Below, piece by piece: positions 8,791-38,155 of a stretch of 64,000 nt of DNA. This stretch comes from Bryoerythrophyllum caledonicum (taxonomy: Eukaryota > Streptophyta > Bryopsida > Pottiales > Pottiaceae). Positions within the stretch are counted from its first letter, which is position 1. Each line of letters begins with the position of its first letter. The notes under the pieces are model-generated. The model was not told where the DNA came from. It made no database searches and worked only from the letters and a program-made list of their open reading frames with translations. Position numbers and translations under genes: made by a program. The stretch spans positions 5,740,168 through 5,804,167 of the forward strand of contig OZ020522.1 of NCBI GenBank assembly GCA_963971425.1, written 5' to 3'.

Positions 8791-10963
8791 TTATTCTCCC
8801 TTGTCCTTCGTGTCTTCCGGTAGCCGAGCTGGTCGATGATAAAAGATATTACTGCTACTGACCATGCCGTCTCCATTCAAGTACCATGCTATGGGCAACA
8901 AGTCATCTTCTTTCTCTGCAAGAACGTCGCCTTCCACAAAATCATACTCGGTGATTGGAGCATTGTTAGTATTATCCATACGTAGAGGGCGGCTACTGTG
9001 GATGTCATCGTCTAGATGCTCTGCATCGTAATTGACAAGGGCACCGGTGCTTGAATCGTGAGAGGATTCCGGGTCATCCGACTCATGTGGTTGTGGTTCC
9101 TCTAAATCCAAGTTCTCCACGTACCACCTCTTCTCATCCGTCAACTTTGCATTTGCGAGCAACTTCGAGTTCGTATACACAAAGACCAAGTCATCAACCC
9201 TTCCCGGTAGTAACCGATTTTGTTTCTTGTCATGGACAAAAGAGTAGCTACTCTAATTGCGTTCGCAAGAAGAAGATGACACTGTTTGCGCTAATATTCT
9301 CTTTGCAATTGGTGCAAGGAGTTTTCAACAAGCACCTTCAAAATCCCACCAAGCATACGAGAACATTTTTGGTCCTTAGGATCCAACATGTCATAGAATG
9401 GTACATCCTTGTTTCGAAATGCTATGAACTCGTTCACCACGTCCCGATAAGTCTTAGGAGTACATAGCTTTTGTAGTACTTGTTTGCATGCTGAAAAGTA
9501 TGTTTGCATGCTGAAAAGTGATTCAGTACACACTTGAACAATGTTGTGGGGACCAACTTGTTCAATGAACTTGAACATGATAGATGTCATGTACGCATCG
9601 ATCTTTTTTTTTCTCGTAGTATCTACGGCTCCCAAGAAGAGCTCTCCAGCGGGAGACACAAGCATTGCATTGCACAAAGAACGACTAGTCACAGATGTCC
9701 ACTCATCCAAGGCTAGAGTTCCTCCAAACTTCTGAACACTCTCGAAGAATTTATTATTAAATTGTGCTTCCAAATCAGCCTTTGCTTGTCCCAACAACCT
9801 TGTCCAAATGTCATGGTAAGAAGGTGGGACCCATGGTTTTTTGAAAGAGGCATTCTTCGTCATGGCTTCCTTGAACGCTGCATTTCGTGCTACAGCAAAC
9901 GACACGTTTGTTTTGTAGAAAAACTTCGCCCACACTTTGTCTAGCTCCCGCCGCACCACTTCTTGAAAGCCCTCTTTGATCACGGATTGTCTCACCAATT
10001 TGGGGAAGGTGCCACCTACACTCCCTTGTTCAGTGGACACTACGGGAAATCAAGGCATCAATGACTAGCGATTTTAGTCATTGTTGAGTCATAAATGACC
10101 TGTATTACTAGGGAATGACTAATTTTTTTTAGTTTGGGCACACTAATAGTTTTGAGTAATAGATTTTTGTAGTCATTCTTTTTGCCACGTGGATTTCTCA
10201 TCCATCTACAGATGTGGCCCATCATCCTCAAAGATTGATGAAGTGGCTACTGACGTGGATTTGAGTGTGACATGGAATTTAAGGTGGATAATGATGTCGA
10301 TTTTAATGTGTGACTTGCCACGTCAACACTACCGGATGAAGTATGGATGAAAATACTGGGATGACGTTATGAACAATGTTGGGCATCACATGGTCTTCAT
10401 CACCTCTCTATCCCCAAAAACTTAAATTACTGTAAAATGACTAGGGCAGCTAACTAGCTAGATCCGAGCAGCGTCTGCAGATCCTGAGTAATTATGTAGT
10501 AATTGTTTTTTGGCTAGTCATTTGTGCTGTAGTCATTTATAGGCCGATTTCCCGTAGTGGGAGTCGTGGAAGGTGGGGGTCGGTTCAACCATAATTGTTG
10601 ATAAGGGAAGAACTTGAGTGGACCCTACATAAGAGTCTCCACCAGTGGACTTAGGCGTGCTATATATTCTGAGGCAGACGCAAATTTCAATGATGGGGTG
10701 GGGCAATGTTCGGAGAAAAGTTCTCCATTATGTTTCAGGTAGTGGCCACGACAATTTTTAAATAAAGTCTGTACGCGGATTGTCAATTTGGTGCAGAGGC
10801 CAACACCGCTATTGCGCTTGCAAGAGAGTTCTTCGTACCCGACATGACTAAGTTGTCGTTCTAGCCTTCTTGCAAAAATGCAATGACAAAGATTGCATTG
10901 GAAGAAGTCGGTCTTTCTGCCTTGTACTTTAGTGATTTCCGTATACCAAGGTTTGGTGGCCAT
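8791..10963 (-). mobile_element. Decayed hAT DNA transposon (BED finger, DUF659, hAT dimerisation parts)
   Basis: Three blocks lie in transposase order on the minus strand. At 10625-10963 is an N-terminal BED-like zinc finger (FFQCNLCHCIFARRLERQLSHV) behind a clear start Met. At 9291-10037 is a DUF659-type catalytic region with FGGTLALDEWTSV, AGELFLGAVDTT and VGPHNIVQVCT, matching the family pattern of hAT transposases. At 8791-9189 is the C-terminal dimerisation segment starting MVFVYTNSKLLANA, with an acidic tail. Much of the region between DUF659 and the dimerisation segment is absent and the frame is broken there, so the copy is inactive. A CACTA-type MITE (10038-10559) splits the coding sequence between the BED finger and DUF659. 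Terminal inverted repeats were not located. Confidence 0.8.
10038..10559. mobile_element. CACTA-type MITE inserted in the hAT transposase
   Basis: The ends are perfect 14-bp inverted repeats, CACTACGGGAAATC and complement. A 3-bp target duplication (GGA at 10035-10037 and 10560-10562) matches CACTA elements. The interior is non-coding and rich in AATGACTA/TAGTCATT sub-terminal motifs in both orientations, the kind of sites CACTA transposases bind. The flanking hAT reading resumes on the other side, which shows it was inserted into coding sequence. Confidence 0.85.
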
Positions 10964-14790: not shown

Positions 14791-17700
14791 CAGTGTCGTA
14801 TCTCTTCATGTCATCAATAGTATGTGTCGTATAGCCACTTTACTACTACATATACTCATGATCTATGCAAATCTCATAAGAACTACCCTATCATAAGCAT
14901 ACATAACATGTAACTATCAGCAAATCCACACTATACAAGGCAACCATGTAGAATTCCACAATTCCCCCCTAGTTGAATATAGCGCCCATGCAACTTAGTT
15001 AGCAAAAGAAAACATAGCTACTGAAGTAAATAACTATCTACAAAATATACTATTACAAATATGAAGTTGAAAATAGTCCATTTGAGTCTTCAAACCAAGT
15101 TGTAAAGAGAGGGATAAGCTAGGTACAATTGAGCCCCATCCTCATTCGCTTCCAACGCCATTTTTGTGGTTGGACTCTACTTTCAACTTAGCAGTACTCT
15201 TGATGACAGTATATTCTCACTCCATCCACGCAACATAGGATTACCTTGATTTCTTACACCGTGGGCAACTCCAATTTCCTTCAGGAAGTGTTGCCAGAGG
15301 AGGACGAAGACATGCCATATGCCACCCTCTCTGGCATTAGTCACATAACAACACAGTTGCTGCGCCCTTGATTTCTCTACAAACAAAACATCTATATCCA
15401 GCTGGAACCACTACCATCTCTGGATGTATTGATCCTTCAATAAGCAAATGACAAGGTGCACAATTCTTGGTATTGTCCCTTGTCCATCTATTCCTTCTAA
15501 AAGAACGACCCCACTTTGCAAGATCTCCTTGACCCGCAAGATGGTTCTACCTACTCGAACATCCAAGGTCGTGGGTGCCTCACATTGTAAATATACGTAA
15601 TCACCCACTTGAGAACGTCGAAGCTGAGGTTTGTAAGCCCCACTCCTAATACGTGCATAACGCAACCTATCTCTATGTTGCGCTATTGCCAAGTTCTCCA
15701 TAGCGATAGGCATGGCCCTCTGAAAATATTCAGCATGATCTTGTAGCACTTGTGCCCAAATCTTCGGATCATCCAAGTCCACAACAAGGTTTAGTTTCTC
15801 TCTTACTGCCAAAGGCAATATTGGCTCTCTGCCATAGAGTAGCTGATAATGACTATAACATGCCAAAGAAGCTTGCCGACTGAAGCAATAACCCATTGCT
15901 ATCCACGGTAGCTTGAGGTCTCAATCTCCATGATTGCCTGCTAGCAATCCATATTTGCGCAATCCACGTTTGACTGTCTGAACCACTCTCTCTGCCAATC
16001 CATCTGCCTTTGGCTGGTCTCTAGAAGTTGTTGGATGATCAATTAGAGCTTTAGTGCAAAGCTCTTCAAAAGACCCAAGGAACTCCCTTCCTTTGTCTGT
16101 CAACACCTCTATAGGGGCTCCAAACCTAGCTAGAACTCGATCTAGGAATGCCGCCGCTGCTAGCTCAGAGGAATTTTGCGGTAAAGCCACCAGCTCAATC
16201 CACTTGCTGAAATGCTCTACCATAACAAGTTCATACTTAACACCTCTTTTGTGGTCATCAATGGTCCAGCAAAATCAGGACTCCACCTATAGCCCAATCC
16301 CATAATTGGTAATGGTTGTAGTTGGAGAGACAAGGTATTGAAGCTTGATCTAACCCAATCGCAAACTTCACACCACCCACATAGGTTGCCACCTCTTGTT
16401 GCATGCCCATCCACCAATATTGACCACGCAACATTGAGTGTGTGCGTCGTACTCCAAAATGTCCCAAGTCTTCATGCATTTGCTGTATCAACTGAAGATG
16501 TTGTTCTGGCCTAGGAACTACCCTCCGTGTTCCATCTTGCCATCTCCGAAATATAGGTCTACCCTCCCAATGAAATCTAGCCACTCTATGAGCTATCCGG
16601 TCCCGCTCTTGAGGTGTGGTATTAGGAAGAAACCCCCCATATTGTAGACGATACAAAATCCCTTCATCTCGCCACACAGCAGTGGTGATTCCCTTTTCTG
16701 GATCCCTTTTCATCTGATTGTTCATCCACAACATATCCCAAAGCTTCTTCAATAGTTTGGCCAGATTTCCCTTCCATCCATGCCAAATAAGCTGAAGCAT
16801 GCCAACCTGGCACTGCCTCTTGGTCAGAAGTACCGTGCCACCTGGCACCAGTCAAGTCTTCTTGCAATGGGCTTGGATTACGGCTCAAGCCATCTGCATC
16901 CAAATTTTGCAACTTTGCCTTATGGACTACTTCAAAATCATATTCTTGCAATAATAATGCCCACCTGGCTAACTTTCCTGTAAGCTTGTCTGATTCCATC
17001 AACCACTTAAGAGGTTGATGGTCAGTTACAAATATAAAGTTTTGCCCACAAAGGTATGGACAAAAATACGCCACCGCCCATACTACCGCAAGACATTCTC
17101 CTTCATAGGATGATTACTTGGCCTTTGCATTATTGTTACTTCGAGAAGCATATGCAATGACATACTCCTTTCCATCATCATCCATTTGAGTTAAAACAAC
17201 ACCAATTCCCAACATACTCAAATCTGTATGGAGTTGGAATGGCCGTCTTGCATCTGGCCTTCTCAACACTGGTGCTAAATTTAGTACTCCTTTCAAGGCC
17301 TCAAATGCTTCTTCTTGAGCAGGGCCCCACATTCATTCTTGATCAGAGTGTGTCAATAGAGTCAAAGGTTTAGCCAAAAGACTAAAACCACGAACAAATC
17401 GACGGTAATAGTTTGTTAAACCCATGAAAGCTCTCAACCTTGACACATCTCTAGGAATTGGAATTCTATTTAAGGCTTCCACCTTCGCTTGTTGTACACC
17501 TAAACCTCCTAGCGTGATCATATGGCCCAAATAAGGTAATTCATTATGAAAGAACCTACACTTTCCATGATGCAAGCGAAGACCCCATTGTTGCAGCCTT
17601 TCAAATACTTGTTGCAAATGTTTTACATGCTCTTGTCGTGTATCACTAAAGATAATATCATCTATGTAACACCGAGCAAATGACAAACCTTTTAAGACTT

Positions 17701-18779
17701 GATCCATCACACGTTGAAATTCTGTTGGAGCATTCTTCAATCCAAAAGGTAAAAACTTTCAATGAAAGAGCATATCTCTTCCATCATCATCTACTCCCCA
17801 AAATGTTGTCTTCACCCGATCTTCTTTTCTCAATGGCAATTGGTGGGACCCTAACCTCAAGTCCAAAGTACTAAAGACTCTTGTTTTTTCAACTGCATCA
17901 AATAACTCCTCAAGTGTAGGCATAGGGTAGTGATCCGATTTGGTCTTCTTCTAAACTGGCCGGTAATCTTGACACATACGCTTCTCCGTCCAATTTCCAA
18001 GAATGTCCTTCTTTGTTGGCATGACCGTTGCACATGCATATTTACCATATGAGAGCTCCACCAAACCTCCATCAAACAACTCCTTGCATCGCACTTTGAT
18101 CCCATCTCTCTTAGAAATACTCAACTTGTATGGACGTCTAAATATTGGATAATCGTCGTCCAATTGTATTCTTACCAGCTTGCCCTTATAGCCCTCTAAT
18201 TCAGTGAGCTTGAAAGCAAAACAGGCCTTGTACGAGCGAATGAAAGCTCGCACATTCCCTGCCTCTGCACCTGTGAGTCCCATCCCTATGTCCATCTCCC
18301 AATCCTTCTGAATTGGCAAGATTACATTCTTTCTTAAGGACTCCAATATAGGTGCTCACACTCCTTCTAGTTGCTAGTTGGATGAAGATGCACCATTGCC
18401 CTTTTCCAAGGCAATAGATGCTATCATTTTATCATGAACATGAGCCAAATGAGGTGCTTTCTTTACAAAAAATACCTTGTTAAAAAGTTCCCTGGCATTC
18501 TCCTTACCCAATTCTTGGGCCAATGCTGCCAAGACCCTTTGACCTCGTAGTTCATCTTCTACAACCCATTCAAAGGCACCTCCATCCCACGTCTTCATTC
18601 CTCTAAGGGTTGTATCCCAGGCTTGCTTACTCTCCAGCCACACCTCTACATCTGGATGATCATCTTTTGAAATATCATGAGATGTCATTCCACCTTGTGT
18701 CCCCTAGCTTGAAGACTCTGCCCCCAGCTGTCCATCCAAGCCACCAATTTCATGCGCTTGAGCTGCTAGACACACCCCT

Positions 18780-19970
18780 AGAAATCAAGTTATGGAGTTT
18801 AAATCCATGGCTTGTCCAAGGATGTGGCGGCGTTGAGACTCTGTAATTCCAGGGCGAGCTGTTGTATCTATAAGAAAGCCCATGGCTCTCTCCCGTTCAT
18901 CAACACAAGGCTCACGAAGACTTTGTGTGCTAGTATCAAATACTAAGCCTAGTTCTCCTTCACGAAATGCGAAAGATCTAGGATAACTCATGAATGTAGG
19001 CAAAGCCAAACGAGGTTCCGCTACATTATTTATCAAGGCAAATGGGGCTGAATCTGCATGCACCACTTGTTGAGCAAAGCGACCAACATCTAAAATGTGG
19101 TCAACATGCCTTCTTTATGGACGTGTAAGTTGCCTCAATATTGACGAAATACCTAGTACGGAAGCCAAGTTTGTCCATTTCTACCGCAACCGATGTGCAT
19201 AAGAACCAAGAGCTATTGCATCCACTAGTACTAGTTCCCCAAGATGTAAGCACACCTCTGCTGCAGCATTTCGCAATTGTGCATTGACCACCCCTAATGG
19301 TGGGACATTCTCAAAGATATTGGCCACAAGAGTGGCTTGAAGGCGTTGACACCACTTCAACAACCGCAATAGCTTCCAAAATAGAGTAGATCGGGGGTCT
19401 TGGAGGCCTTGACCTGGCCCAACTCGGGAATGCCCTTGGCAAGGCCATCCAGCCATCACAAGGTCCACTCTTTCTAACCTTTGAAGATTCTCTTGGCCAA
19501 TCAAAGAAATGTTCGATGGTAAACGTGACATACAACCTTGTATAGCACTTGCGTGTAATTGCGTTGGATATCTCATCTGCAAGTGTTGAAGATGATGCTT
19601 TGTTGTTGTGCTGATAATGACATTATTATCCACATATGTATAACTTTGTATAGATAATCGAGCTTCTAAAGCAGCAGTCAATCTTGTACCAAGTCCAACA
19701 AAAAGTTCTATGAGAACTATACCCCCAGCCTCTTTGTGAAGCTCCACAAGCTTTTGCAGAGGAGGCCTTGTATATTTTGGCTCCCAAAGGTGTTGATCAA
19801 CCTTTTTCACTAATTCTTGGCATTGATCCATCAAGCCTTTTGATGTAGTCCAAAGTAGCGTTGGATCCTTTGGATGCCCAATAAACTTGCCCAATTGAAT
19901 TGGCACTTGCATGTCTGATTGTGGAGGTGAATCCAATGAAGACATATTTCCCTCAAGTAGCATATCACTA
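18780..19970 (-). mobile_element. Methyltransferase part of the Ty3-type element (C5-cytosine DNMT)
   Basis: This is the part of the element between protease and reverse transcriptase. Motif I is seen as LIELFVGLG (SAM binding), motif IV as AGWPCQGHS (the PCQ catalytic loop), motif VI as FENVPP, and motifs IX-X as ERERAMGF followed by RRHILGQAMD. The blocks are in the order and spacing of the C5-methyltransferase catalytic domain (Pfam DNA_methylase). There is no sign of BAH, chromo, UBA or other host regulatory domains, so it appears as a compact catalytic cassette. Retroelement-borne DNMTs are known, from memory, in the charophyte Klebsormidium and in dinoflagellates. The part is broken along with the rest of the element. 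Confidence 0.85.
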
Positions 19971-21917
19971 GATGCAAATCACTCGGCAACGCATCCATAC
20001 ATCGCTACTAGTCCATATACTAGGTCTGCACTGGCACCAAAGGTGACAGAGAGTATTTCCTTCCTTTCATCTCTTTGAGATCAACCCGGTGTAAACCATG
20101 CTTCCTCAGTTGAGCAATCGTGACCAAACCAATGGGGTACAATGCCTATTGCCCTATAAGTATATCATAAGTGGTGGCACCCGTGATCACACATCTTATA
20201 GATATGTAAGTATATGCATCGTTGCCCACCTTGAATTGTAGCCTTAAATATTCTTTTGTAAGCCCTATTAGATGTTCTGTGCCCCCAACAGATGTTACAA
20301 TCATAAAAGGACATGGATCAAGGTCTTCTACTTTAATACCTAGGCTCTCTATTAAGTTCTTTTCCAACATAATTGGTTGAGCCCCTGTATCAAGTAAAAC
20401 CTTTTGTGGGTACACCTTAGAACCATTACGTCCAGCCACAGAAAATACATGGCCTGAATTGGCCAATTTAACCATCCATGGCTTCATCTGCAAGCGCTCT
20501 CGAGTTGACTTGGCTGGAATATTAGCCAAGTAGCTTTTAACAACCTTCATATCATCTCCCAAATCAAAATGATTCTCATTCAAATGTAGGCCGTTATCAA
20601 ACACTACTGCCAAAGGAGGTTCCTTCTTCCAATCCTTCCAACGCTTGAGTGCATCAGTTGCCTCAGAAGCAAGTTGTTTCTTTTTGCCTTCTATATCTTC
20701 AATCACAGTAGCCTCTTCTGTTTTCTTCACGGCCACATTTGCATGTAATTGCACTTTTCCTTGCAATATCTTTCTAGCCATATAATAGACCATAGGTGCA
20801 TCAAAGTTCAAACTCTGCACTTGCATGCCTGAAAACAATGGGATCTCTAATACCTTAAGCGCCAATTTCTTGATCATATCCTCCTCCAAAGATGTTTTGT
20901 CCTCATTGGGACTTTGATTGTGAAGTGGTTTGGTTGCCACATCTGCAAGACCAAATATCAAGGGCAATCGTGATTGTCCAATATTGTCCGCAGGTCCTTT
21001 GTGGCGTGCACCAAGCTCATTATCAACCAACACGGGATCTTGAAGTACATCTGATGCATGTGATGGTGTCTTCAACTGTGACCTTGTTGTTGTAGCTGCC
21101 ATCAACTCTCCTTGGGCTCCATACTCAAATCTATCATACCCTAGTTGTTGAGGGACACTATGTGCCGGTCTTGATTTAGAGGTTGCAGGTGCTTGTTTAC
21201 TTATTGCTGCAAGCAAGAACACTAAGCTATTTTGCAATTCACCCATACGTGCCTCGAAACTGTTAGTTCCAAAGGTTGATCCCCTCCCTTGTGGTTGAAA
21301 AGATTGAGGCCTCAACTGTGGATTCTTAATCCAACATTGAGCCTCAGTATGCCCTATCCGTCCACAAGTAGGATGAGAGTATTTAGCAGGAGAGTTGGCA
21401 GGCTTGCCTTGACTATATGTCTTTGTTTGTTGACTCTTGTCAGCTGCTTTTCCTTTACTTCCACTTGCACCACCTACACTATCAGAAGGCTTTGGGCAAT
21501 CCTTCTTGCTATGGCCCAATTCTCCACATCCCCAACACCTTATACAAAAATTTACAGGTGTTGCCACTTCTGCAGCCATTGCAACTTGCTTAGGTAGCTT
21601 TGAATTTACATGGCCTTTGCTTGGACCTCCAGTAGTAGCCTTAAGTTGACTTGTTGTTGTTGTTGTTGTCATAATGGATGATAAACTTCCAGCTTCTTCC
21701 ACGCACAACACTCGTTCAAATTGCTCTACTATTGTAAATGTTTGAGCTAAGGTAGCTCGACCTCCATACATCAATAGTATATGAGGATGTGCCATCTCTC
21801 GAATCTTCTTGTCTTGTTTTCCCATATAAAGCTCCACCAATTGTCGCTCTGTAAATGCATCTCCACTTTCACGAGCAAACCTTGCAAGGCGTACATACAA
21901 AATTCGTGTAGTATCTT

Positions 21918-24900
21918 TGTGGGAGTCTAAAACTCCCATTTGGTCGCCCCTACCAAAAAAATTAGTTAAAATAGGGTTTTTAGTATTAGTTAATTAGAAA
22001 AGTAGTTAGTATTGTGTGGAATTAGATTAGATAGTGGATAGGGAAAATAGGAAAATGCTTAAGTAGTTAATTAGGTTTATAGTGGTGATAAAACCGGGTC
22101 TTGAAATCACTAATTTAAGTCCCAAGAAACAATTTCAAAAGAGTCCTGGGAGAGATCCCGGGACGTAAGTCTAAAATCACCACTTAAATCTAAATTAACT
22201 AGTTAAGTTTGGAAGGTAGTTAGAACCAGTTGAGTTCTAGATACTAATTCTTATTTGAATTAGTAGTAGTGGTAGAAAAAAGAAAAGAAAAGACAGAAAA
22301 GAAAAATATAAAAGAAAAAGAAAAAGAAAAAAGAAAAAAATATATTCCAAAAAATTTAAAAATAAAAATAAATTAAAAATTAAAAAAATATATATACCCG
22401 GGTATCAACCCGGGTATGAACTAGCCCGGGTACCAACCCGGATATGAACTATCTCGGGCACCAACCCGGGTATGGGCTGATACCCGGTTACCCGGGTATC
22501 ACCCGTGCATCAGCCCGAGTATCTCCAGCCATCTTGGCCAACCCCCTCTCTCCGAAATTTTCTTCTTCTCTCCAGAAACTCTTCTTCCCCCCTCCAGAAC
22601 TCTTCTCTCTCCCCCTCCTTCTCTAAAATCTCCCCCCCCTCAAATTTTCTCCTCTATCTCCCTCTCTAGTTCTCTCTCTCTCATAAGTTCTCCATCCCTC
22701 TCTATTTGGTCTCTTTTTGGAGTTGGGGTTTGAAGAAGTAGTTGAAGAAGTGGAAAGGAGATGCAACTAGGATTTCAAGAGAAGGTAGCGCAAGAGGTTT
22801 GAAGAGGAGGTGCGCGAGCTAAGGTTTGGTGGAAGAGGGCGCAAGTTAGGATTTGGTGGAAAAAGCGCGCAAGCTAGGGTTTGGTGGAGATTTCTAGGGT
22901 TTGTGGAAGTGGAGGAGATTTGTGGCCGAAACGAGAAGATAAAAGAGACAAAGGAAGGAGGTTGCGGGTGCAACAACAAAGGTGAGTCTTGCTCATATTG
23001 GGTTTCTTTTGTTTGTGCAAAATTCTTGTTTGTGAATCTTTTCCTCTCTTGTCTACCGGGTGACTCCCCCGGTAACATCCTCCCCGGTCTAGAGAAAAAG
23101 TCCCTCGGGGGACTTCATCTAGACCTTATTGTTTACATGTGTAGTTGTTGTCGATTGTCCTAGCCTTGTTGCAAGTTGTTATTTTGAGTTGTTTCCCTCC
23201 TCCTATCATTTTAGGTCTTGCCCCCAATTCCTATATTTTTCTCGGTCAACCGGGCAACCGGGAAAAACCTCTTTCTAAGTCCTTGTCTCCAAAGTCCTCT
23301 CCTCGTTATCATTATATGTGACCTTGTGTTGTTAGTATGTTGCTAGATGTGTGAGACACCCATATCCACATACTCTAGCAAAGTGTTCCAGAGTTGTTTA
23401 TCGGTTGACCGGTAGACTTGTGTTTCCGGGCCAGACCGGAGTTTGTGACAAGTTAATAGGGAGATTGGTGGAAGTACAGGCATTTTGAGGATTTTGTCCA
23501 CCCAGGACAACATGGCTCTCCGGTGAGTTGGGTGGATTTTCCATCCTCCAAGAAGTGGGGCTTGAAGGTCTATGAGAGAAAAAAAAGCCTCCCGGTAACT
23601 TCTACCAGGAAGGAACCGGTAGACCTCCCTTCCTCAACCCCGGAGTCCTTGGTGGAGTCCTCTGTGGCTAAATTAATCGAGCTTAAAGAGACTCCGCATG
23701 TATCTATAGATACACCCAACCTCTCGGTGGATATTCCCAATCCACTGGTAGACCTCCCGGTTGAGACATCCAACCTCCCGGGGATTTTCTTGACCATATT
23801 GGTACTTCCAGACGTAGTGACGATCCCTATATGTCTCAATCGGAAGAGTCTTCTGGTTGAGTCTTCGTTATATGTTATGTGTTGGTTTACCTCACCGGTT
23901 GGTGAGATGTTGTTTTAAGTTGCTAGAATTACACACTAAGGTGAGAGTAGTGATGTCGATGGGGCCCCATTGCGCACCCGGTCACTACCACTTGAGTGGT
24001 TTCTCCGGCTACTTAGTTTTGTTAGGGAAAGGTTCACCGGTCCCGGGACCGGGAGTCTTCCAGTTTACCGGTCTACTGGTAATCCGCCGGTGACTAGGCT
24101 ATCCTTGATTTTAGGATCTAGACGTCGTTTTGTCCTGTATTGGATGTACTTTTGGAGGGTAGCTATTGACTTTAGTGCACTCCCTAGATGTCGTTTTGTC
24201 CTTTTAGGGTTTAGTTTTGGGGCGTAGCTATTGACTTTAGTACACTTTTTAGATGCCATTTCCACCTTTTGGGGATCTAGTTTTGGAGGGTAGCTACTGA
24301 CCTTTGTGTACTTAAGGGCCTTGGGCTCTTGTGTTATGTACTCTTCTCTTTATTGATCTCCTCGTGTCTTACCTTCATTGCTTGTGTCTAGAGTCTTTGT
24401 TGAGCTTATATGAGTAGACCGGGAGAGGGTTGAGTCCTCCTAGTGTGTCTTTGCTAGGTGTGCAAGGTTGTGACTTGTTGTGTGTTAAGTGATTGAGTGT
24501 GAGTAGAGACATCCCGAGGGGCTAGGATATCCGGGTTAGATAAATAGAGTGAGGTCCGGGACTTATGCTCTAGACTTTTTACCGGTGGGACCGGGAAGAG
24601 TTGCTTTACCGATGGGACCGGGAAGAGTTGCTTTATCAGATGGGATCCGGGAAGCCCATGGCTATTTATGATAGCCTCCCTTAAGTGGGAAGTGTTTGGA
24701 TTGGTGGGGAGTAGGGGGTGACATCCCCCTTCTCTCGGTACACCGAGAGACATCCCAGCTAAGCCTGAGTCCGGTGAATTCCGGGAATATTACCCTTACA
24801 TTGGATTAGTTCCAACGATCCCCGTGGAAGGTTGTTTCGCTCATATGATTTGTTTAGTACTAACTTGTTGTGAGTCTTGTATCTTCTTGCTTTGATTCAT

Positions 24901-25335
24901 TGGGTGTGGTTGTAGTTGGAATCCGGGCTTGCGTGACCGGTTTACCGGGACAAGTTCCCGATAGATTGTGAAGACCGGTAAACCGGCTACGACCTTTATA
25001 ACTCTTTCAAGGTGTAGGGTTAAATTGTGGTTATTGTAGCCTCTAGACTGTGAGAACGGAGGGCAGTGACTTTCCGGGCACTGTAAAAACTTACCGGAAA
25101 TCTACTCTGACGCTCAACAGAGTTTAACTAAAACACATGTAGTTACTTGTTACCGGTTACTAAGGTACCGGGGAAGCCATCCTCCGGGATGTGCCGAGGT
25201 ATTATGTGTGATTTGTTGTTAAGATTTAAAGAGTTTGATGCACGATAAAAATCCCTGGAAACGATCTGGTAAGGTGGGCTTGCTTAAGATTAATTTCGGT
25301 TAATTTTGAGAGTAACGAACCACTAGATTACGACA
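21918..25335 (-). mobile_element. Solo LTR (3.4 kb) of a large-LTR retroelement, inserted in gag of the methyltransferase element
   Basis: The boundaries are TGTGGGAG…TACGACA on the plus strand (TG…CA), with a perfect 5-bp target duplication ATCTT at 21913-21917 and 25336-25340. The gag coding sequence of the host element lies on both sides. No gag or pol lies inside, so this is a solo LTR left by recombination between two LTRs. It is rich in ACCGGT/CCGG words (23.2-25.2 kb), has an A-rich tract at 22.27-22.39 kb and a CT-rich tract at 22.55-22.70 kb. Short frames inside (for example 23523-23918) are chance. The second copy at 43060-45917 is in the opposite orientation. Confidence 0.92.
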
Positions 25336-26105
25336 ATCTTCAACTTCTTTCTTGAAATCCTGAATGTGGCGCATACAATCACGTGTTATCCCACCAAACT
25401 CAACCTCGAGGTGTTCAAAGAATAATACCAACGGATCAAAGTGAGGCGGAGGTCCAACAGTGGCTTTGGCCTCTGTGGATCATCTAGACAATCTAGATAT
25501 GAATGTGACTGTTGTCCCTAGGGCGGCACTCTCTCTAGTTCCACGAGCCGTGGCTGTTGCAGCTTGAAGCCTTGCTGTCCGTACTGCATCCCCACTTGTC
25601 GAGACTTCTTCATCATCATCACCATCATCCAATGCTCTAGCTGCAGGAATAGCAACACCCTCTTTCAATGTTGTAATCAACTCCACGCGTCGCGTCCAGT
25701 AGTCCTCTATAACACCAAGATCTTCCATGTGCTCTTCAAACCACGCATCATATGCTTGCAATGTCTCAAACTTCAAATGGTTCGGAAATTGCTCAAAAGC
25801 CCACCAATCATTAAACAATGGATTACGTTGCTTCATTGTTCTTTGCCATGATCGAAATCTGGTCTTCCAGTTGTTGAAGGCTACACCTTCAGCTCTCCCT
25901 GAGTATCGATCTCGAACCATGGATCCACCACTGTGGTCATCCTGTCCTCAAAGGCACTAAATCCCCAAGGTTTCGGTAGATCAACCGCAAAGAGGGGCGT
26001 ATGTGCACCCTCTTCAAGTTCTTCGTCGTCGATGTCCTCCAAATATAGCTTATCGGATACCGATGAATTCTTTGGTGACCTGTAGTCTTTCTTACGTGTT
26101 TGTAA
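25336..26105 (-). mobile_element. 5' gag part of the methyltransferase element, between the two insertions
   Basis: This minus-strand segment lies between the solo LTR and the Tat-like element. It is acidic, aromatic-rich gag-type sequence (FNNWKTRFRSWQRTMKQ, WWAFEQFPNHLKF) in the orientation of the rest of the element. It shows that the solo LTR sits inside gag and that the Tat-like element landed near the gag 5' end. Confidence 0.75.
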
Positions 26106-26472
26106 TGTTAGCGTCTAAGTTAGTCTAGGTGTCATGGTTACAGTGAGTCATGTAGTAACAAGGTCATTGAACACGTGGTAGTCGACGTCGAGATAACTAC
26201 ACGACCAGAGCAGTTATAATCTGGGCAAGCCATCTTGTCGGTTAGCACACTACAAGAAGAAAAGTACAACTGACTGGTATGTAACTACCAGTACAAGGTC
26301 CAGCCTAGTACAAAAGGTCCAGTAGAGAGCAACATCGGTCTCAGTCGTCATGAGCAAGTCAGGAGACCATATACAGGAATCAGGTAGAAATCATGGCATG
26401 TTACAGACGTTGGCTCGATCAATAAAATGACACTTGATTGAATCGACTTAAGAAAAATTTGCCACTTTTACA
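26106..26472 (+). repeat. 5' LTR of the Tat-like element
   Basis: Begins TGTTAGCG and ends CTTTTACA. An AATAAAATGA word near 26422 may act as the polyadenylation signal. It differs from the 3' LTR at six positions, five of them transitions. Confidence 0.95.
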
Positions 26473-27289
26473 TCTAGTTCCGTTGCCGGGACCCGATTTG
26501 TCCAAGGGTGAAAGCTGAGCGAGAATTTTGAAGCAAGAACGGTGAAAGAAGTAGATATATTATCCGACGTCTGTTTATCGCGGTGTGTTTTTTGAGTCAT
26601 GTTACGACCTGAAGTTGTTTGTGAACTGTAGGCAATTACAAACTGGTATTTGTGAAGTGGTACATGAAGTCGTTTATATTTTCCATAACCAGCATCAAGT
26701 TTGAATTCGTTCCAAGGAAACGTGAAGCAATTACGAGTAATTTCCGATTTTGATTGTATTAAGTCAGATAATGATATTGAAATATCAAAATCCACCGAGA
26801 AATCCAGCCGAGCTAAGGAACTTTGTATTGCATGTTATAAAATTAACGTACAAGTATCCTGAGCTCAGGGGAGACAAATTTAGACAACATCTTTTCATTT
26901 TACAAAACATGGAATGGGAAAGGAAGTGGACCAGACAAAGTGATCAAGCCTACTGTGGAATAGTAAAAGAATTAAACGACTTAGCCAGCATCAACTTATC
27001 AATGATATCTCAAGATACTGGGAGGTTAACGCCAAATATTTGAGGAAGTGAAATCGACGTCACTCCCAATTTCGCAAGTCTTTGCTCAAAATAAAATTAG
27101 ATATCAAGTGCAACCGCACCAGTCAGCTTGACGCAGCATGAAGCCCTGGAAGCTAGGAGTAACGAGGCGTCGCCAGTTAACAACACGAGGAGGCCACGTG
27201 AAGGATACGTGAAGGCCGACTAAATGAAGACGGAGGATCATCCATAGATCTACTGTAAAGTTGCATGCGTAATAAAGCCTCTTGCCGGA

Positions 27290-27720
27290 AACGATCGATA
27301 TCGACATGGGAGGTCGGAGCCTGGTAGTGTCGATGCATACTTGGAAACTCTACTTCGACGGCTCCTGTTCCAAAGTTTCGGGATCGGGCGCTGGAATAGT
27401 TTTAATCAGCCCTTTAGGAGAACAAGAAATATTTCATCAGGACCTGGGTAAAGGATTAACTTGTAACGAGGCTGAGTATGCCGCTCTGATTACTGGCTTA
27501 GAGATCGCCAAGAGTAGACAAATTAGAAATTTATAGATTTGTGGTGATTCGAAACTAGTTTGCCTTCAAGTCGCTGGAAGTTGGGAGGTACGAGCAGTGA
27601 ACTTACTACCTTATTACGAAGCTGTAAACAAATTGAAACATAACTTTCAGTCAATAAAAATTTCTCACATCCCGAGATATATGAACCAGCAAGCAGACGA
27701 AGCTGCTCGAAACAGTTAAG
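27290..27720 (+). mobile_element. Extra RNase H part upstream of gag in the Tat-like element
   Basis: The translation shows the plant/archaeal-type RNase H pattern: WKLYFDGSCSKVSGSGAG, then CNEAEYAALITGLEIAKS, then GDSKLV, then HIPRYMNQQADEAA, giving the D-E-D-D acidic set in order. Tat-lineage elements are known for an additional archaeal-like RNase H, but it normally lies next to the pol RNase H or integrase. Here it stands between the 5' LTR and gag, while the ordinary pol RNase H is present at about 31 kb. Confidence 0.8.
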
Positions 27721-27763
27721 CTGCTAGCACCGAAAGGTTCAAAGTATACACAAACGCTCTTGG

Positions 27764-27868
27764 TTTCTTGGCACTTGGAGAAGGTTTCTTCACAGTTGGC
27801 GGTGATTTCTTGACAGTTAGCGGTCGTTTCTTGACAGTTAGCGGTGATTTCTTGACACTTAGCGGAGG
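27764..27868 (+). repeat. Five 21-bp tandem repeats between the extra RNase H and gag
   Basis: The unit TTTCTTGACAGTTAGCGGTGA is repeated five times with no length change. As 21 is a multiple of three, one frame reads a heptapeptide repeat of the type FLTVSGD. A sixth, weaker unit follows. Confidence 0.85.
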
Positions 27869-30800
27869 TTCTTTTACGGTTACCAACATCCTCTACAGAA
27901 GTTAGCAGTGACTCATACTTGCAGAGGTTTCTTAACAAGAGATTTTTACATTGATAGAGGATTATATTTAGTTTCACAATAGAAATACTCACTGATGCAC
28001 AACAGGTTTAATCTTGAAAGAGAAGAGTCTTTGTCAGATAATTTTGAAGAGACTTTATGGTCACAATTCTTAGAACAGTAGGAGCAAAAGCCAAGACCAA
28101 TATTTGACAGAAAGAGACCAGTCAACCTAAAAATGGTTTCTATTCCAGTGTTTACTGGAAAAGAGAGAGAAGATCCCGAGAGGTTCCTGAAACAATTCAA
28201 GCGAGCTTGTATGGCAAACGGGGATAGAACTGAGGAAAGTTGGCTCGAATTACTACCAATTCACTTAGACGATACGGCCTCCTTTTGGTATGACAGACAG
28301 TCTACCTCAACCAAGTCATCATGGAATACCTTAACATCGGCTTTGGAGAACAAATTTCAAGAACATGAGAGCTACCAGAGTCTTTTAGGAACTCTGAGTC
28401 TGATCAAACAACAACATGAGGAAAGTGTTCGTCAGTTTAGTGAAAGAGTCAGAGAGCTGCAAGCTCGCATACAACGCAGCCTCAACGCAATGCCAAATAT
28501 GCGTAGCGAGAGCAGCTCAGGATATCAGGAGTCATCTATTGATAACATACGAAGCATTGATGCATTAGCATTGAGAAGTTTTATTAGTGGCCTGAAGCCA
28601 TCGATCCAAGAAATTGTTGCCTGGAAAGAACCAGGGACATTTGAGGCAGCACTCGCTTTAGCACAAAAGAAAGAACTGAACTTAAACAGTATTAGCCAAC
28701 CTCAAATCATAACTGCAACAATAACTCCCATGGTGACGAAGCTGGTACAGACTTCACCGGCAATTACAGAAGTTATAGGAGAAACGTCAAATCCAAACCT
28801 GGAAATTTCTCAACTTATCTCTGATATGAGAGACTTAAAGCTCTTCTTACTACAAGGACAAAGCAACAACCGATCCAAGAGTCCAGGCACCGATAATAGA
28901 GGAAACGCCACAAGAACTGTTCAATTTATCACCTGTCATGGATGCGGTAAAAGAGGACACTATCAGCGCGACTGCCCGGAACAAGACAAGCAAAACACTT
29001 TACCAACAGCCAAATTGGCGGAAGTAAACCTCTTGCAAATGTTTGATGATTCACGAGTCCAAGAGCGTGAACCTGAAGTTATGACCACGAAGCGAGGTCG
29101 ACCTCCCAAAGATCCTGAAGCTCACCACAACAAGCGGATTAAAGCCGACAGAACTAGACGTCCACGTAGGAAGATCGGCATCGACGATATGATCATGAGT
29201 CAGGGACAACAGGAATATTCGATTTTACGAGACTTAGGATGACAAACAGCGAGGATAACAGTCGGACAATTAATGGCAAAATGTCCGTCATTACGAAAAG
29301 AACTGCGACAAGGAATAAGCACCCGTCGAGGGAATGGAACAGCCGAAGTGCATGTAGCAGATAAAGCTCGAGGGGATTTAAAATCGCCGCAAGTTGTTGC
29401 AACTGTGAATAATCATGAAGTTAGTGGCTGCTTGATCGACAGAGGTGCCGCGGTTAATGTAATGTCTCGCTGGTTTATGGAGGATGCTGGTTTGGTTCCA
29501 AGTAAATCTTCCACATTACGGTTGAAAGTTGCTGATCAACGTTGTGTCCGATCACTTGGTCAGATCAGTCAAACTCCTATAACCGTTAACGGTGTCACCG
29601 TCAAAGTAGATTTTCATGACCTTGATATATCCACTACGAAAGGAGGATATCCATTAATATTGGGCCGTCCCTGGCTTAGTCAGGGAGTTCCGACGATTCA
29701 ACATGGAGTTTTGACCCTTCTTTTGAATCAGATGAAGAATCTGAAAGTTCTGAAGCGGAACTTTATGCTTTGGACGTACTACCTCAGATGATTGCCGACT
29801 CCATGCGACATCTAGAAGACACCGAAATCTCACCAACACGTTGCGAAGAAGTGCTCCGAACGGTTAAATTTGGTCCCACACTTTCAAAAGAAGAGCGAAA
29901 CCAACTGGAGGCACTAGTTGCCGAGTATACCGACTTGTTTGTATCAAGGCACATCGATTTACCTACGATATCACTAGAGGAACATAAAATAGAGCTGCTG
30001 CCTAATGCAAAGCCGATCTGAGCACGTCAAAAGAGAATGGCTCCCGATAAGATGTCGGTATTGAGAGCTGAACTCGACCGGTTACTTGAAGGCGGATTCA
30101 TCACCGAAGTGAGAAACACAGAATGGGTGTCACCCGTTGTGATTGTGCCAAAAAAGGGAGGAAAATGGCGCGTATGTGTCAATTACAAAGCATTAAATAG
30201 TTTTACCAAGAAAGACCGCCAACCTTTGCCTCATATAGACGAGTTGCTCGATGAAGTTGCAGGGCATGATATGTACTCATTTTGTGATGGATACGCTGGA
30301 TACCATCAAGTAAGAGTACATCCAGATAGTGTGTTATATACAACTTTTACACCCCCGTGGGGAACGTATGCATATCTCAGGATGCCTTTCGGTCTTTGCA
30401 ACGCTGGAGGCACCTTCCAAAGACTTCAACTCAAAATATTTGGCCCGCTTATAGGAAAATTTATACGGGTTTATTTAGATGATTTTGCGGTATATGGGTC
30501 AAGAGAAGATCATGTTGAGAATGTGCGCATTGCTTTCCAAAGGTTACGTGAGTACGGATGTTCTCTTAGTCCAGAAAAATGCCAGCTTGGATTCGAGGAG
30601 GGCCCATTACTAGGTCATGTAGTTTTCAAAGGCGGTTTAAAAGTAGACCCTGGAAAGGTTCAACGGATCTTGGATATGGAAAATCCGACGTTGCGCGAGC
30701 AGGTATCACACTTATGGGGAACTACCATCTATCACAATAGATTCATTCCCAACTTAGCAGGCATTGGACGACTGATAAGCGCTTTGATCAGTAAATCGAA

Positions 30801-32649
30801 TCCATTTATATGGAGTGAAGAGCATAACCAAGCATTCAATTATATCAAAACATGATTAGCGAGTGATCCTGTTGTGAAAAATCCAGTTTGGACAAAACAA
30901 TTTATCATCAACCTGTCCGCTGCGGAGCATGCTGTAGCTGCTGTGTTAATTCAAAAGGATGATGCCGGTAGAGCCCATCCAATTATTTACGCAAGTAGAT
31001 TAATGACAAGCGGTGAGTTGAAATATTCTCCTTTGGAGAGGGTAGGAGCGGCTTTATTATTTGCATGTTTGAAGTTCAAACATTATTTATTATCGAGTCT
31101 TCATCCTATACTCGTACAGTGTGAAACTGAAGGTTTAAAACATCTAGTTCAACAAACTGATCCAGAAGGCCGAGCTGCTCGCTTAATGGCTGCACTTCAA
31201 CCTTTTGACCTCGTGATTAAGTCGATAAAAGGCACAAGAGCTACACATGCAGATTTATTGTTGGAATTGGGAAGACCACCTAGAGATGAGATCGGCGCTC
31301 TCTCAGATGATGCAGACTGTTATATTCTCGCAGGAAGAGTCGACTCTTCACATTCTCCATATGAAGAGATTATGAACTATCTTCGAGATCTGGGGTTACC
31401 AGAAGGTGCCACTGCACAACGGCGACGAGATATACGGCGCCGCAGTCAATCTTACACCTTGATAGGGGAGGATCTTTACCGAGCTGGAAAAGATGGCGTG
31501 TTACGTAGAGCCTTGAATTCCGAAGAAGTTGAGTTAGTACTACACCAAAGCCATGAGGGAGTTTGTGGCGGACATTTTGCCACGGATATAACAGCAAGGA
31601 AGATTATTCAATGAGGTTACTATTGGCCTACGCTCTTTGCTGATTGTAACAAATATTGTAAGACTTGTCCACAGTGCCAAGCTTACAATAAGCGAATCAT
31701 TCCACATACAGAGTTCTTCCCAATATTTCCTACTGGAATTTTTGAGAAATGGGGTTTGGATTTCGTCGGACCTTTACCAATCACACCAAACGGAATGAAT
31801 ATTTGCTGGTCGCGACCAACTACTTATCTAAGTGGGCTGAAGCTGTACCCGTGAAAAGTTGCAACAAGAAAGCTGCAGTGGATTTTATATTCAATCAAAT
31901 CATATGCCGTTATGGATGTCCCTTAGAAATCGTCACAGACCAAGGAACACACTTCATTAATGAAGTAGTATCAGATCTCTTAAAAAAAATGTCGGTCAAA
32001 CATCGCAGAGCAAGTCCGTATTATCCCCAAGCAAATGGTTTGGTGGAAAGGACAAACGGGATCTTGACTAATATCATCGGCAAAATAGTGCTAGAAAAAC
32101 GAAAGCAATGGGATCTACATGTCGGTGAAGCCCTTTGGGCGTACCGAACTGCATACAAGACAGCTACAGGTCATACGCCATTCATGTTAGCCTTCGGGAT
32201 CGAAGCAACTGTACCAGTAGAGTTGGAGTTAAAATCTCTGCGAACTGCTATTAAGCATGGTCTAGACCATGAAGAATCTAGAAGTGCTCGAGTCATCATG
32301 CTGGAGCGGTTAGATGAAACTCGTCGAGCAACGCTTCAACGATACGAAAACATACAGAAGAGACGTAAAGCGGGACGTGATCCTTCACGAAGACTAATAA
32401 GATTTGAGAAAGGTGATTTGGTCTTGATGGTAGACCATTGGTTAATGAAACAACATGGACAGAAATTCCGACCTAAATGGTTAGGACCATACGTAATATA
32501 TAAAGACTATGACAACGGTTCATATAAACTCGATACACCAAATGGAGAAATCATGAAGAAACGATATAACGGCACAAAACTAAAATTGTATCGAGAGCGT
32601 ACATTACAGGCTAGAATCGTTCAAAATGCTCACCAGCCTGGGGAGGAGA

Positions 32650-33016
32650 TGTTAACGTCTAAGTTAGTCTAGGTGTCATGGTTACAGTGAGTCATGTAGT
32701 AACAAGGTCATTGAACACGTGGTAGTCGACGTCGAGATAACTATACGACCAGAGCAGTTATAATCTGGGCAAGCCATCTTGTTGGTTAGCACACTACAAG
32801 AAGAAAAGTACAACTGACTGGTATGTAACTACCAGTACAAGGTCCAGCCTAGTACAAAAGGTCCAGTAGAGAGCAACATCGGTCTCAGTCGTCATGAGCA
32901 AGTCATGAGACCATATACAGGAATCAGGTAGAGATCATGGCATGTTACAGACGTTGGCTCGATCAATAAAATGACACTTGATCGAATCGACTTAAGAAAA
33001 ATTTGCCACTTTTACA
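32650..33016 (+). repeat. 3' LTR of the Tat-like element
   Basis: Begins TGTTAACG directly after the purine tract GGGGAGGAGA and ends CTTTTACA. It is the same length as the 5' LTR (367 bp). Confidence 0.95.
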
Positions 33017-34750
33017 GTACCATCAACTAATAAAATATCATAGCTTGATGTGCATGCAACAAACCATTCTTGAAACGAAGCAATGAGTAGAAAATTATTC
33101 ACTTCTAAGTCTTGAACATTACCAAGGCTAGTAGAAGCCGGTTAGAGGTTGTTGAGAACCTTGAGGTTAAGCGGGATGGGGGAGGAATAGGACTTGGATG
33201 GATGACCAAGGGAACTAGGTCGAAATTTCCTAGATCTTCTTGGCTTCGCCTCGCGAAGCTCGCGGAACTCGGGAACTCAGGAACTCGGAATGCCTTCCGC
33301 CTTCGAGCCCTACCTTTTCTGGCCCCCGGTTACTTCGTAATTTTTTATTATAGTAAACTAATTACAGCCACAGTAACTTAGTTACTATTTATCCTCGCAG
33401 TAATTGCCTAGTTATTGAACAGTAATTACCCTCATGGTAACTAATTACCAGTTACTATTATCCGACAGTAATTATCCAATTACTATTGCCCGACAATTAC
33501 TAATTACAACCTATCGTGTCACTTATTCGGTCTAGTCACCCTTACCTCCAAAGTCAACTTCGTCTCTCCCAAAATTTCTTCTATCAACGTTGCAACTCCG
33601 ACAACAACTCCAAAATACCTCCAAAAATGACCGCTCCCAAATACAAGCGCTCTAAAAACCTCCGACGCTCCACTGTCTTTGCTGCCACTCCAACTGCTGT
33701 TGTTGCCGTTGTCGCCACACCTCTGCAGCACCTCCGCAGTGTCTCTAGAGCGTCGTCTTTCGCACTAAATTCCAACAACTAAAACAAACTAGATTCTTGT
33801 CAAGTAATGAAGATCACATCCCTTCTTCTTACTCTATTCCTATAGAATTAGTCCAGAAAAGTGAAGAAAGAGAAGAAACGGCGACTAAGCTTTGTATTAC
33901 ATGGCAAACCGCCAACTTCAACAAGCCTCCAAGCCACATCCTTCCAACTCTCCCTTCTATACCCAAATTTGAACTTGACAAGAATGAAGGTGACATGGGC
34001 GGCTTGGGGTTACAACCACCGCAAACCAGCCCTGAAATACCCCTTTCACACTTCCGACTCGCCTAGTGTTAATTGAGCCCTATTAAGTGACTTTAAGTCC
34101 TAACTAGGCCCCGGTTAGACTATACTAACAATTAAACTATACTACCAATCCCTAAAGAGACACTTAATCTTCACCGTTGCCATATGCCATGACAGCAAGC
34201 AAGCCGGAGCAAAAGGCCGGAGCGGAACCAATGCGCAGAGCGACACGACTGAGATGACGACGAGCAGCATCTACACGGCGGAGTCGTGTAGGACATATCG
34301 GTGGAGCTAGGACCACGAGCTAGGACGGCGAGGGCAAGGAGAGCCGGCAACGATCTCCCGGGCTTGGCTTTAGAATGGCTCTCTCTGTGGTAAGAGATAT
34401 CTCTCCTATCATTTCAAAGGATCCTCTTGAACTTACGGAGCCCAAGGAGGACCTTCTCCGCATGGGATGTCTCTCTCTCCTCGATTTCTGTTGGGGATTT
34501 TGTATCGAGTCCACGGTGCAAGAGATACGTCACGAGCCCTTATCAGAGCCGGAGGAAGATAGTATCCGAGCTTGCCCAGAAAGACCATGGTCCACCTTTC
34601 CGGGCAAGGGTTGTCATACTGGACGGACGTCTGGTTTGCCCGTCCGTCCGATTCGCCCGTCCGGTAGAGCTCTCGCCCGTCTGATACAGTCAACAGAGGG
34701 TTGACTTACCCGCAAGATAAAAAACAAGCGACGTGGCAGCCATGTTGGCA
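33017..34750. other. Unassigned, probably 5' flank or LTR remains of the methyltransferase element
   Basis: At 33340-33510, GTAATTA/TAATTAC words repeat in both orientations. From 34180 a GC-rich tract shares words with the array at 13.7-14.8 kb (AAGGCCGGAGCGGA), which would fit an LTR, but no end was found. Short open frames (33516-33782, 34375-34704) have no domain and are treated as chance. Confidence 0.35.
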
Positions 34751-37143: not shown

Positions 37144-37253
37144 CTAGGAGTATTTAAAGGTTTAGGACGTAGCAAAAAAAATTTGCGAACAATACTTTTG
37201 CTCTAAACATTATATGATTTTAAATATCCTTTTTGTTTGTAATGGTACGTTTT

Positions 37254-37838
37254 ATTTAGAGAACTTGCACATTACATTCTACTAGAGGCTTATACTCCGC
37301 TTTATGGATGGAGACTTGCACAACTCCCATGCTATTCACTACTTGATTTATTTTTTTCTTTAATGGTATGTGGTACATTCCTAATCTTTTGTAAGGCACT
37401 TGTGTTTAAAGTATTTATTTAGAGAACTTGCACATTACATTCTACTAGAGGCTTATACAACCCCTTTATGGATGGGGACTTGCATAGCTCCCATGCTATT
37501 CACTACTTGATTTATTTTTTTCTTTAATGGTATGTGGTACATTCCTAATCTTTTGTGGGGCACTTGTGTTTAAAGTATTTATTTAGAGAACTTGCACATT
37601 ACATTCTACTAGAGGCTTATACAACCCCTTTATGGATGGGGACTTGCATAGCTCCCATGCTATTCACTACTTGATTTATTTTTTTCTTTAATGGTATATG
37701 GTACATTCCTAATATTTTGTGGGGCACTTGTGTTTAAAGTTTTTATTTAGAGAACTTACACATTACATTCTACTAGAGGCTTATACAACCCCTTATGGAT
37801 GGGGACTTGTATAGCTCCCATGCTATTCACTACTTGTT
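37254..37838 (+). repeat. Tandem array, 163-164-bp unit, about 3.6 copies
   Basis: The unit starting ATTTAGAGAACTTGCAC begins at 37254, 37417, 37581 and 37745 (the last is partial). Units differ at only a few positions, so the array is recent. Part of the unit (TGCATAGCTCCCATG…TTCACTACTTG) also appears once at about 35473, inside dispersed copy A, the likely source. Confidence 0.9.
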
Positions 37839-37839
37839 T

Positions 37840-38155
37840 TAATAGGGAGCTAATAAAGGTGTTCATTATTGGAGAGCATGCCGTCAAAGGACAAAAGTTG
37901 TACTTTCCATTTAGCCTTCCTTCCTAGACATAATCTGCTTGTTATTTTGAGTGCGTCGCAATCTTGTCAGAACCAAAAATAAGGCACGCTATATTAAAAC
38001 CTCCACCCTCCTCATGGAGAGGAGGAGTGCCTAAGAACCCAAAATGCCCCAAAGGCCTCCTTCTCCTGGGTTGGGGAGACGTCCCCGCCCAAGCCCGGGT
38101 AAGGGCGGGGACGTCTCCGCCCCTCATGGAGATGTCCCCGCCCTAGTGCCACGGT
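37840..38155 (+). repeat. Direct repeat, copy 2, ending in GC-rich palindromic cluster 3
   Basis: Matches 35942-36340 in the same orientation, including AAAAATAAGGCAC and the closing GGGGACGTCTCCGCCCC palindromes at about 38070-38150. Confidence 0.8.

Follow-up and report, generated by a model that had tools for sequence, protein, structure and literature searches.

A Ty3/Gypsy-type element family of Bryoerythrophyllum caledonicum with a DNMT3-like cytosine methyltransferase ahead of a conserved UAG stop in a leaky context

Plants silence retroelements by cytosine methylation, and selection to keep a cytosine methyltransferase inside a retroelement is therefore a paradox. The question is raised by a 64,000-nucleotide stretch (the window) of Bryoerythrophyllum caledonicum (Bryopsida; Pottiales), which covers positions 5740168-5804167 of contig OZ020522.1 (C10 in our numbering) in the assembly GCA_963971425.1 (437,360,962 bases, 894 contigs). 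There, a first-pass annotation made from the letters alone had proposed a C5-cytosine methyltransferase between the protease and the reverse transcriptase (RT) of a Ty3-type element. An element of this kind may put on its own DNA the mark by which its host silences it. The window element is one decayed copy of a Ty3/Gypsy-type element, broken by two later insertions. That it represents a multi-copy family equipped with a DNMT3-like methyltransferase is practically certain. As the best explanation overall we favor, with some reserve, a two-frame element in which a UAG codon would set the dose of a self-marking enzyme.

The minus-strand piece at 19181-19978 matched the Pfam DNA_methylase profile PF00145 (E = 4.1e-9, 36.7 bits, cutoff 22). 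The piece at 18785-19114 gave no Pfam match on its own; it aligned over its full length with the C-terminal half of the methyltransferase domain in relatives. L019, a 9285-base contig with 127-base identical ends that holds a whole element with open frames, served as the intact reference for protein alignment. Its comparison with the window placed the protease end, the methyltransferase, and the following linker in one frame (20143-18467). All 325 methyltransferase positions were aligned at 49% identity, with three in-frame stops (19181-19183, 19115-19117, and 18785-18787) and no frameshift inside the domain, which occupies 18785-19740 (upper border approximate) on the minus strand. The motif letters ELFVG, WPCQG, ENV, AHRLR, and GQA were kept in the window copy. 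The profile match and the same-strand alignment confirmed the enzyme between protease and RT. In frame 1 of L019, Pfam at E 0.01 found nothing besides the protease and DNA_methylase. Profile scores against C5 enzymes were highest for DNMT3A (54.6 bits), followed by HaeIII (33.4), HhaI (26.8), 4onj, which we take to be a DRM (24.2), DRM2 (19.0), and DNMT2 (15.6). Judged by sequence score and fold only, DNMT3A/3B are the closest kin among C5 enzymes, and the identity to the DNMT3A/DNMT3B catalytic domain is about 20-25%. A close bacterial or phage source was not supported: apart from L019, viral or bacterial contigs retrieved by the profile aligned only in stretches (24-63% identity). P0016, a relative labelled Obscuribacterales, found no viral relatives as sole query.

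A protein search with a 265-residue piece as the query yielded 31 proteins (E 2.7e-94 to 1.2e-8). The profile search that followed at E ≤ 0.001 scored the 7996 candidates sharing most words and yielded 122 proteins with an alignment, 120 of which were listed. In the assembly itself, the methyltransferase piece had at least 146 matches, a lower bound from 144 of 1440 candidates scored. These protein and genome matches exclude a chance match. Named relatives among the matches listed were Sphagnum troendelagicum (P0068) and Closterium sp. NIES-54 (P0102) and NIES-53 (P0114). Nineteen of the 138 collected proteins reached from the protease, or from before it, into the methyltransferase. A search with the protease only gave 15 proteins; read by eye, eight continued into the methyltransferase, seven ended or broke earlier, and none passed directly to an RT. 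An alga-like group of the same enzyme comprised P0066, P0030, P0050, and P0067, two of them with other neighbors: the methyltransferase adjoined an integrase zinc domain in P0066 and a PHD finger in P0030.

L019 carries the label Synechococcales AVDCRST_MAG81. The genome copies L046-L049 were nearly identical to it at the protein level (about 89% in frame 1, 93-97% in frame 2), so the most plausible reading of L019 is plant or algal DNA that was placed in a bacterial bin. This cyanobacterium-labelled contig (1-9285) is a eukaryotic retroelement, the Obscuribacterales-labelled P0016 is of the same kind, and both are likely mis-binned.

The possibility that the domain was peculiar to the window copy was addressed by an RT survey of the assembly, covering the best 90 of 150 scored rows (4221 candidates), the scored rows reaching down to about 80% RT identity. 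A methyltransferase match lay within 4.5 kb upstream of the RT in 81 of these 90 copies. The upstream DNA of the remaining nine held methyltransferase sequence, sometimes partial, in eight cases, and L056 had lost the domain by an internal deletion. Methyltransferase sequence was thus kept, in some copies only partly, in 89 of the 90. By identity to the window, the genome matches fell roughly into subfamilies A (about 77-86%), B (about 60%), and C (about 45%, the L019 type), with some intermediates. Twenty genome copies were fetched, 12 of A, 2 of B, and 6 of C. The genome search proposed with the first-pass annotation, for the same gag-protease-methyltransferase-RT order, found the methyltransferase upstream of the RT in all 20. 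The methyltransferase is a trait of the whole element family, not of the window copy alone. A lack of host accessory domains had also been claimed, which calls for revision: the element carries a chromatin-type domain, a C-terminal PHD finger (PF00628 at 4.3e-10 in L019), and it was reached within the fetched stretch in 18 of the 20 copies (exceptions L033 and L035).

The placement inside pol held in part. The enzyme does lie between protease and RT, but a conserved TAG in a leaky context parts it from the RT and leaves it on the side of gag and protease. Frame 1 of L019 runs through gag, protease, and methyltransferase up to a TAG, and the RT frame follows directly, in phase, with zero bases between. 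This frame 2 has its first Met at residue 117 and its RVT_1 match from residue 128 on. In the window, the stop and its context, TAG CAA CTA, lie at 18368-18376 (minus strand), preceded by a linker from the methyltransferase (18377-18703) that aligns with P0031, P0020, and others. The stop was located at the same place in the 20 fetched copies and by pattern searches. It was TAG in 19 of the 20 and TAA in L032; L050 had an insertion immediately before it. The next six bases were CAACTA (12 copies), CAACCA (2), or CAATCA (6). The UAG and CARYYA context was accordingly present in 19 of 20 copies, the other having TAA, with YY being CU, CC, or UC by subfamily. When the codon was left free, the C-type junction had 203 genome matches (control 1), and the codon in the 100 listed was TAG in 94, TTG in 4, CAG in 1, and TAA in 1. 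The A/B-type junction had 41 matches (control 18), with TAG in 33, TAA in 2, and others in 6, which may be chance. Forty-two proteins reached the linker; by their tails, 32 ended at the stop position and 10 ended earlier or diverged. RT followed the methyltransferase in none of the 138 proteins. P0078, P0066, and P0030 joined the methyltransferase to integrase or PHD sequence, and P0078 looks like an internal deletion. CARYYA followed 3 of the 1891 TAG triplets of the window (both strands), the conserved stop being one of them.

Tobamoviruses use UAG-CAR-YYA as their readthrough signal (type I); UAG-CAA-CUA, the form present in the window, is listed for Providence virus and UAG-CAA-UYA for pomoviruses (PMC3542737). 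When a UGA stop was tested in a reporter, all six following bases appeared important (PMC4132726). From its context, the UAG is probably read through to express the RT-integrase frame. Because the enzyme stands on the gag side of a stop in a leaky context, its production probably matches that of Gag, whereas RT-integrase would depend on readthrough. If readthrough holds, the methyltransferase dose would equal that of Gag, and RT, integrase, and PHD finger would amount to a small fraction.

The ratio of nonsynonymous to synonymous substitutions (dN/dS) was calculated for pairs that share ancestry and are not independent, with the window copy counted within subfamily A. The median for the methyltransferase was 0.131 for A versus B (26 pairs, dS 1.73; RT 0.076), 0.146 within C plus L019 (21 pairs; RT 0.121), and 0.075 for C versus L019 (6 pairs; RT 0.062). 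Purifying selection acts on the methyltransferase, with dN/dS somewhat above that of the RT. As a separate observation, the in-frame RT stops in decaying subfamily C copies were mostly TAG (by eye), as methylated-cytosine decay would yield.

The termini set the family apart from canonical relatives. Seven of the eight copies examined at both ends had split repeats in the arrangement A-coding-B-A-B, with A of about 365-400 bases and B of 106-107 (subfamily C) or about 170 bases (subfamily A). In L034, the B pair was present, but the 5' A was not found within 800 bases upstream. All seven copies tested started with TGTCA, ended with CGACA or TGACA, and were flanked by perfect 4-base target duplications. 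From these TG..CA-type ends and duplications, a DDE integrase probably placed the copies. The Pfam matches of both L019 frames included no phage-integrase (tyrosine recombinase) family; an rve and H2C2 integrase was found instead. In L041 and L046, the two copies read at this point, a purine-rich tract precedes B, and B and A meet in the palindrome GACAGCTGTC. On our reading, reverse transcription would give B-A repeats, the ends would join, and the integrase would act on the palindrome to yield permuted ends. The Ty3/Gypsy domain order of protease, RT, RNase H, and integrase (PR-RT-RH-INT) is present. Given split repeats rather than two full identical long terminal repeats (LTRs), the element is Ty3/Gypsy-like in its working and no canonical LTR member. 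A conventional LTR pair had been considered at the window copy and was rejected, as no repeat pair was found, an absence later explained by the split repeats. A tRNA-iMet primer site was not found beyond chance in the window or L019. The A-repeat pairs of five copies diverged by 0.005-0.05 (pairs partly cut by the stretch ends), and the family therefore includes young copies. The repeat pairs of five copies also differed by 20 transitions and 2 transversions, as expected from methylated-cytosine decay.

In the mechanism that we propose, frame 1 would supply Gag, protease, and the DNMT3-like methyltransferase, and frame 2 would supply RT, RNase H, the DDE integrase, and the PHD finger. Most translation would stop at the UAG and give Gag-protease-methyltransferase in bulk, while a small fraction would read through to RT-integrase-PHD. 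Inside the particle, the protease would free the methyltransferase, which would methylate the new double-stranded complementary DNA (cDNA), so that the cDNA would carry the mark before reaching the nucleus. By reading histone H3, the PHD finger may direct where integration occurs. Intact copies probably encode an active DNA methyltransferase; self-methylation of cDNA as the main use of the enzyme is a more tentative proposal. Methylation of cDNA before integration was proposed by de Mendoza and colleagues for their elements (PMC5890265), and the present data add dose (through the stop), selection, and copy number to that proposal. In its widest form, an old green-lineage family would package the methyltransferase at capsid dose and the PHD reader at polymerase dose via a leaky stop of plant-virus type. 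Its pre-methylated DNA would integrate after a circular or permuted intermediate is opened at the split-repeat palindrome, and the element would be a self-contained writer and reader of an epigenetic state that it sets itself. This full combination is rather unlikely.

Several points weigh against the two-frame, self-marking explanation. The analysis covers genome and protein sequences. The domain of KnitGypsy-Dnmt3, an element of Klebsormidium nitens, gave no detectable methylation in yeast, which its authors regarded as inconclusive (PMC5890265). The methyltransferase evolves faster than the RT (49% versus 76% identity, window versus L019). Within subfamily A, dN/dS was 0.68 for the methyltransferase and 0.51 for the RT, and the single B pair gave 1.23 at a dS of 0.027 (RT 0.32); decay of copies after insertion would give such high values. 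The AHRxR motif was altered in 8 of 22 aligned rows, all of them A or B. CpG depletion, which self-methylation might leave as a trace, was evident in A and B (CpG ratio 0.38-0.48) and missing in C (0.79-0.85), and host methylation would have the same effect. Given its absence from subfamily C, such depletion is no longer taken to prove self-methylation. Finally, no stop parts the frames at the TTG and CAG junctions among the 100 listed.

Of the other explanations, one holds that the enzyme mainly targets the host genome or other elements, and alters host methylation, blurs silencing marks, or restrains competitors. The high dose predicted from the gag side of the stop would suit such a role, as would the size of the family, which numbers hundreds of copies (203 junction matches) and keeps long open frames in many of them. 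A particle-bound polyprotein is, however, aimed at cDNA, and the global methylation pattern of Klebsormidium was described as similar to that of land plants (PMC5890265), so that we consider a host target unlikely. It is likewise improbable that the domain persists because it binds nucleic acid, shapes the particle, or methylates RNA, rather than as a DNA methyltransferase. In favor of this view stand the gag-side position and the altered AHRxR motifs, and RNA methylation was raised by the authors of PMC5890265 for the LINE type. Nevertheless, PCQ and ENV were both intact in 19 of 22 rows (exceptions L035, L040, and L051; L043 had a change adjacent to PCQ), and the fold is nearest to DNMT3A/3B. 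The UAG could also be an ordinary terminator, with frame 2 reached by reinitiation, an internal entry site, or spliced RNA. CARYYA fits readthrough by sequence alone, which leaves room for this view, but the frames are in phase with zero bases between them, the first 116 residues of frame 2 hold no Met, and YY varies between subfamilies only inside the consensus; we regard it as very unlikely. That a methyltransferase gene from the host or a bacterium landed by chance in a single copy, which the stops of the window copy by itself might have suggested, is already refuted by a domain that is under purifying selection and occurs in 89 of 90 RT copies and all 20 fetched ones.

For the favored two-frame element, the closest known counterpart is KnitGypsy-Dnmt3 (de Mendoza et al. 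2018, PMC5890265), likened here by description. Both have Gypsy-type domains and a Dnmt3-type methyltransferase in the coding region. The repeats of KnitGypsy-Dnmt3 are arranged as in DIRS, A-coding-B-A-B per the legends, which is the arrangement found here, and purifying selection (Ka/Ks < 0.2 there) is common to both. The text of that report assigns the KnitGypsy-Dnmt3 domain to the Pol polyprotein reading frame; here the domain shares one frame with gag and protease before the UAG, which may differ from that layout. In the main text of that report, the term 'PHD' is absent and 'stop codon' appears once, on Symbiodinium; 'readthrough' was not among the terms checked. K. nitens did not appear by name among the 120 listed matches, most of which are unnamed, with long proteins excluded by length. 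The element class is already known, and the present family is a variant of the KnitGypsy-Dnmt3 kind in another green lineage. The rarity suggested at first pass, a charophyte and dinoflagellates, is right for the reports named in PMC5890265, but relatives also occur in the Sphagnum and Closterium records. SymbioDIRS-Dnmt3 and SymbioLINE-Dnmt of Symbiodinium are also retroelements with a cytosine methyltransferase, and SymbioDIRS has split repeats as well. They differ in their RT classes, in having a tyrosine recombinase or an endonuclease and not a DDE integrase, and in their dinoflagellate hosts (PMC5890265).

The stop has counterparts elsewhere. In tobamovirus replicase readthrough, the stop and the six following bases are identical; here, they sit between methyltransferase and RT, and readthrough is predicted (PMC3542737). 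In gammaretroviral gag-pol, an in-phase UAG sets the RT-integrase dose, as proposed here, but that signal is of type III with a pseudoknot, and here protease and methyltransferase precede the stop (PMC3542737). DNMT3 inside retrotransposons was later noticed in PMC12344493, and a term check of a plant survey gave no hit for methyltransferase, PHD, or readthrough (PMC6317226). By title and abstract, no literature was found that reports a land-plant element of this kind or a CARYYA stop within one, with subscription journals and preprints mostly outside the search. The conserved UAG-CARYYA, not seen in the portion of the earlier report (PMC5890265) covered here, would uncouple the enzyme dose from the RT dose and offers a clue to its use. 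With hundreds of copies, including young ones, three subfamilies, and one relative of separate origin, this genome is a test bed for the questions of whether such elements methylate the cDNA they make and how they profit from it.

The window copy occupies 14794-34195 on the minus strand, as judged by order and single strand relative to L041, the genome copy used as the DNA reference for its extent. Alignment A2 was too divergent to serve for DNA scanning. The order is gag-CCHC-protease-C5-methyltransferase-(TAG)-RT-RNaseH-integrase-PHD. The 5' terminal repeat A, starting with TGTCA (33801-34195, 92% identity to the L041 A repeat), is followed by the 5' untranslated region (33017-33800, 84-94% to L041 in pieces). 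The N-terminal part of gag (25336-26104) had 44-48% identity to L019 by tblastn and 91% DNA identity to L041. The C-terminal part with the CCHC knuckle and the protease (20146-21916) was assigned by tblastn with L019 and Pfam: the knuckle at about 21490-21540 (zf-CCHC 1.5e-4) and the protease at about 20272-20409 (Asp_protease_2 3.7e-4, under the curated cutoff of that family). Downstream of the stop lie RT and RNase H with stops (16664-18304; RVT_1 6.7e-19, RT_RNaseH 1.1e-17; 72% identity to L019), the frameshifted integrase with H2C2 and DDE core (15480-16851; Integrase_H2C2 8.3e-13, rve 7.6e-11; 58-81% to L019 in pieces), and the PHD finger with one in-frame stop (15247-15480; 70.5% identity to the PHD region of L019 by tblastn, E 1.8e-31). 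The 3' terminal repeat B is at 14794-14962 (93.5% to the L041 B repeat). The alignment with L019 lists 14 in-frame stops, one of them twice (13 distinct), and several frame changes; the copy is therefore dead. Its ends are TGTCA and CGACA, with flanks TTGC and CTGC, equal at three of four bases. The comparison with L041 showed neither of the second A and B repeats that would be expected at the 3' end.

The insertion in gag at 21917-25335 is another repeat, seen by self-comparison and as a gap in the L041 alignment, and a diverged second copy of it lies at 43060-45917 (about 77-88% identical in pieces). The insertion at 26105-33016, on the plus strand and within the 5' portion of the methyltransferase-bearing element, is a separate, young Ty3/Gypsy element with 368-bp LTRs that are 98.4% identical by self-comparison and with Pfam matches to gag, RT, and rve. 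Neither the Rfam nor the tRNA scan of the window gave a match. On the minus strand, a piece of a Core-2/I-branching enzyme gene (PF02485), probably a host gene, lies at 730-1671, and a DUF659 piece, presumably hAT-transposase-like, at 9291-10049. Tandem repeat arrays occupy 37250-37841 and 41471-42129, the second being open in several frames (open reading frames of 202-295 amino acids).
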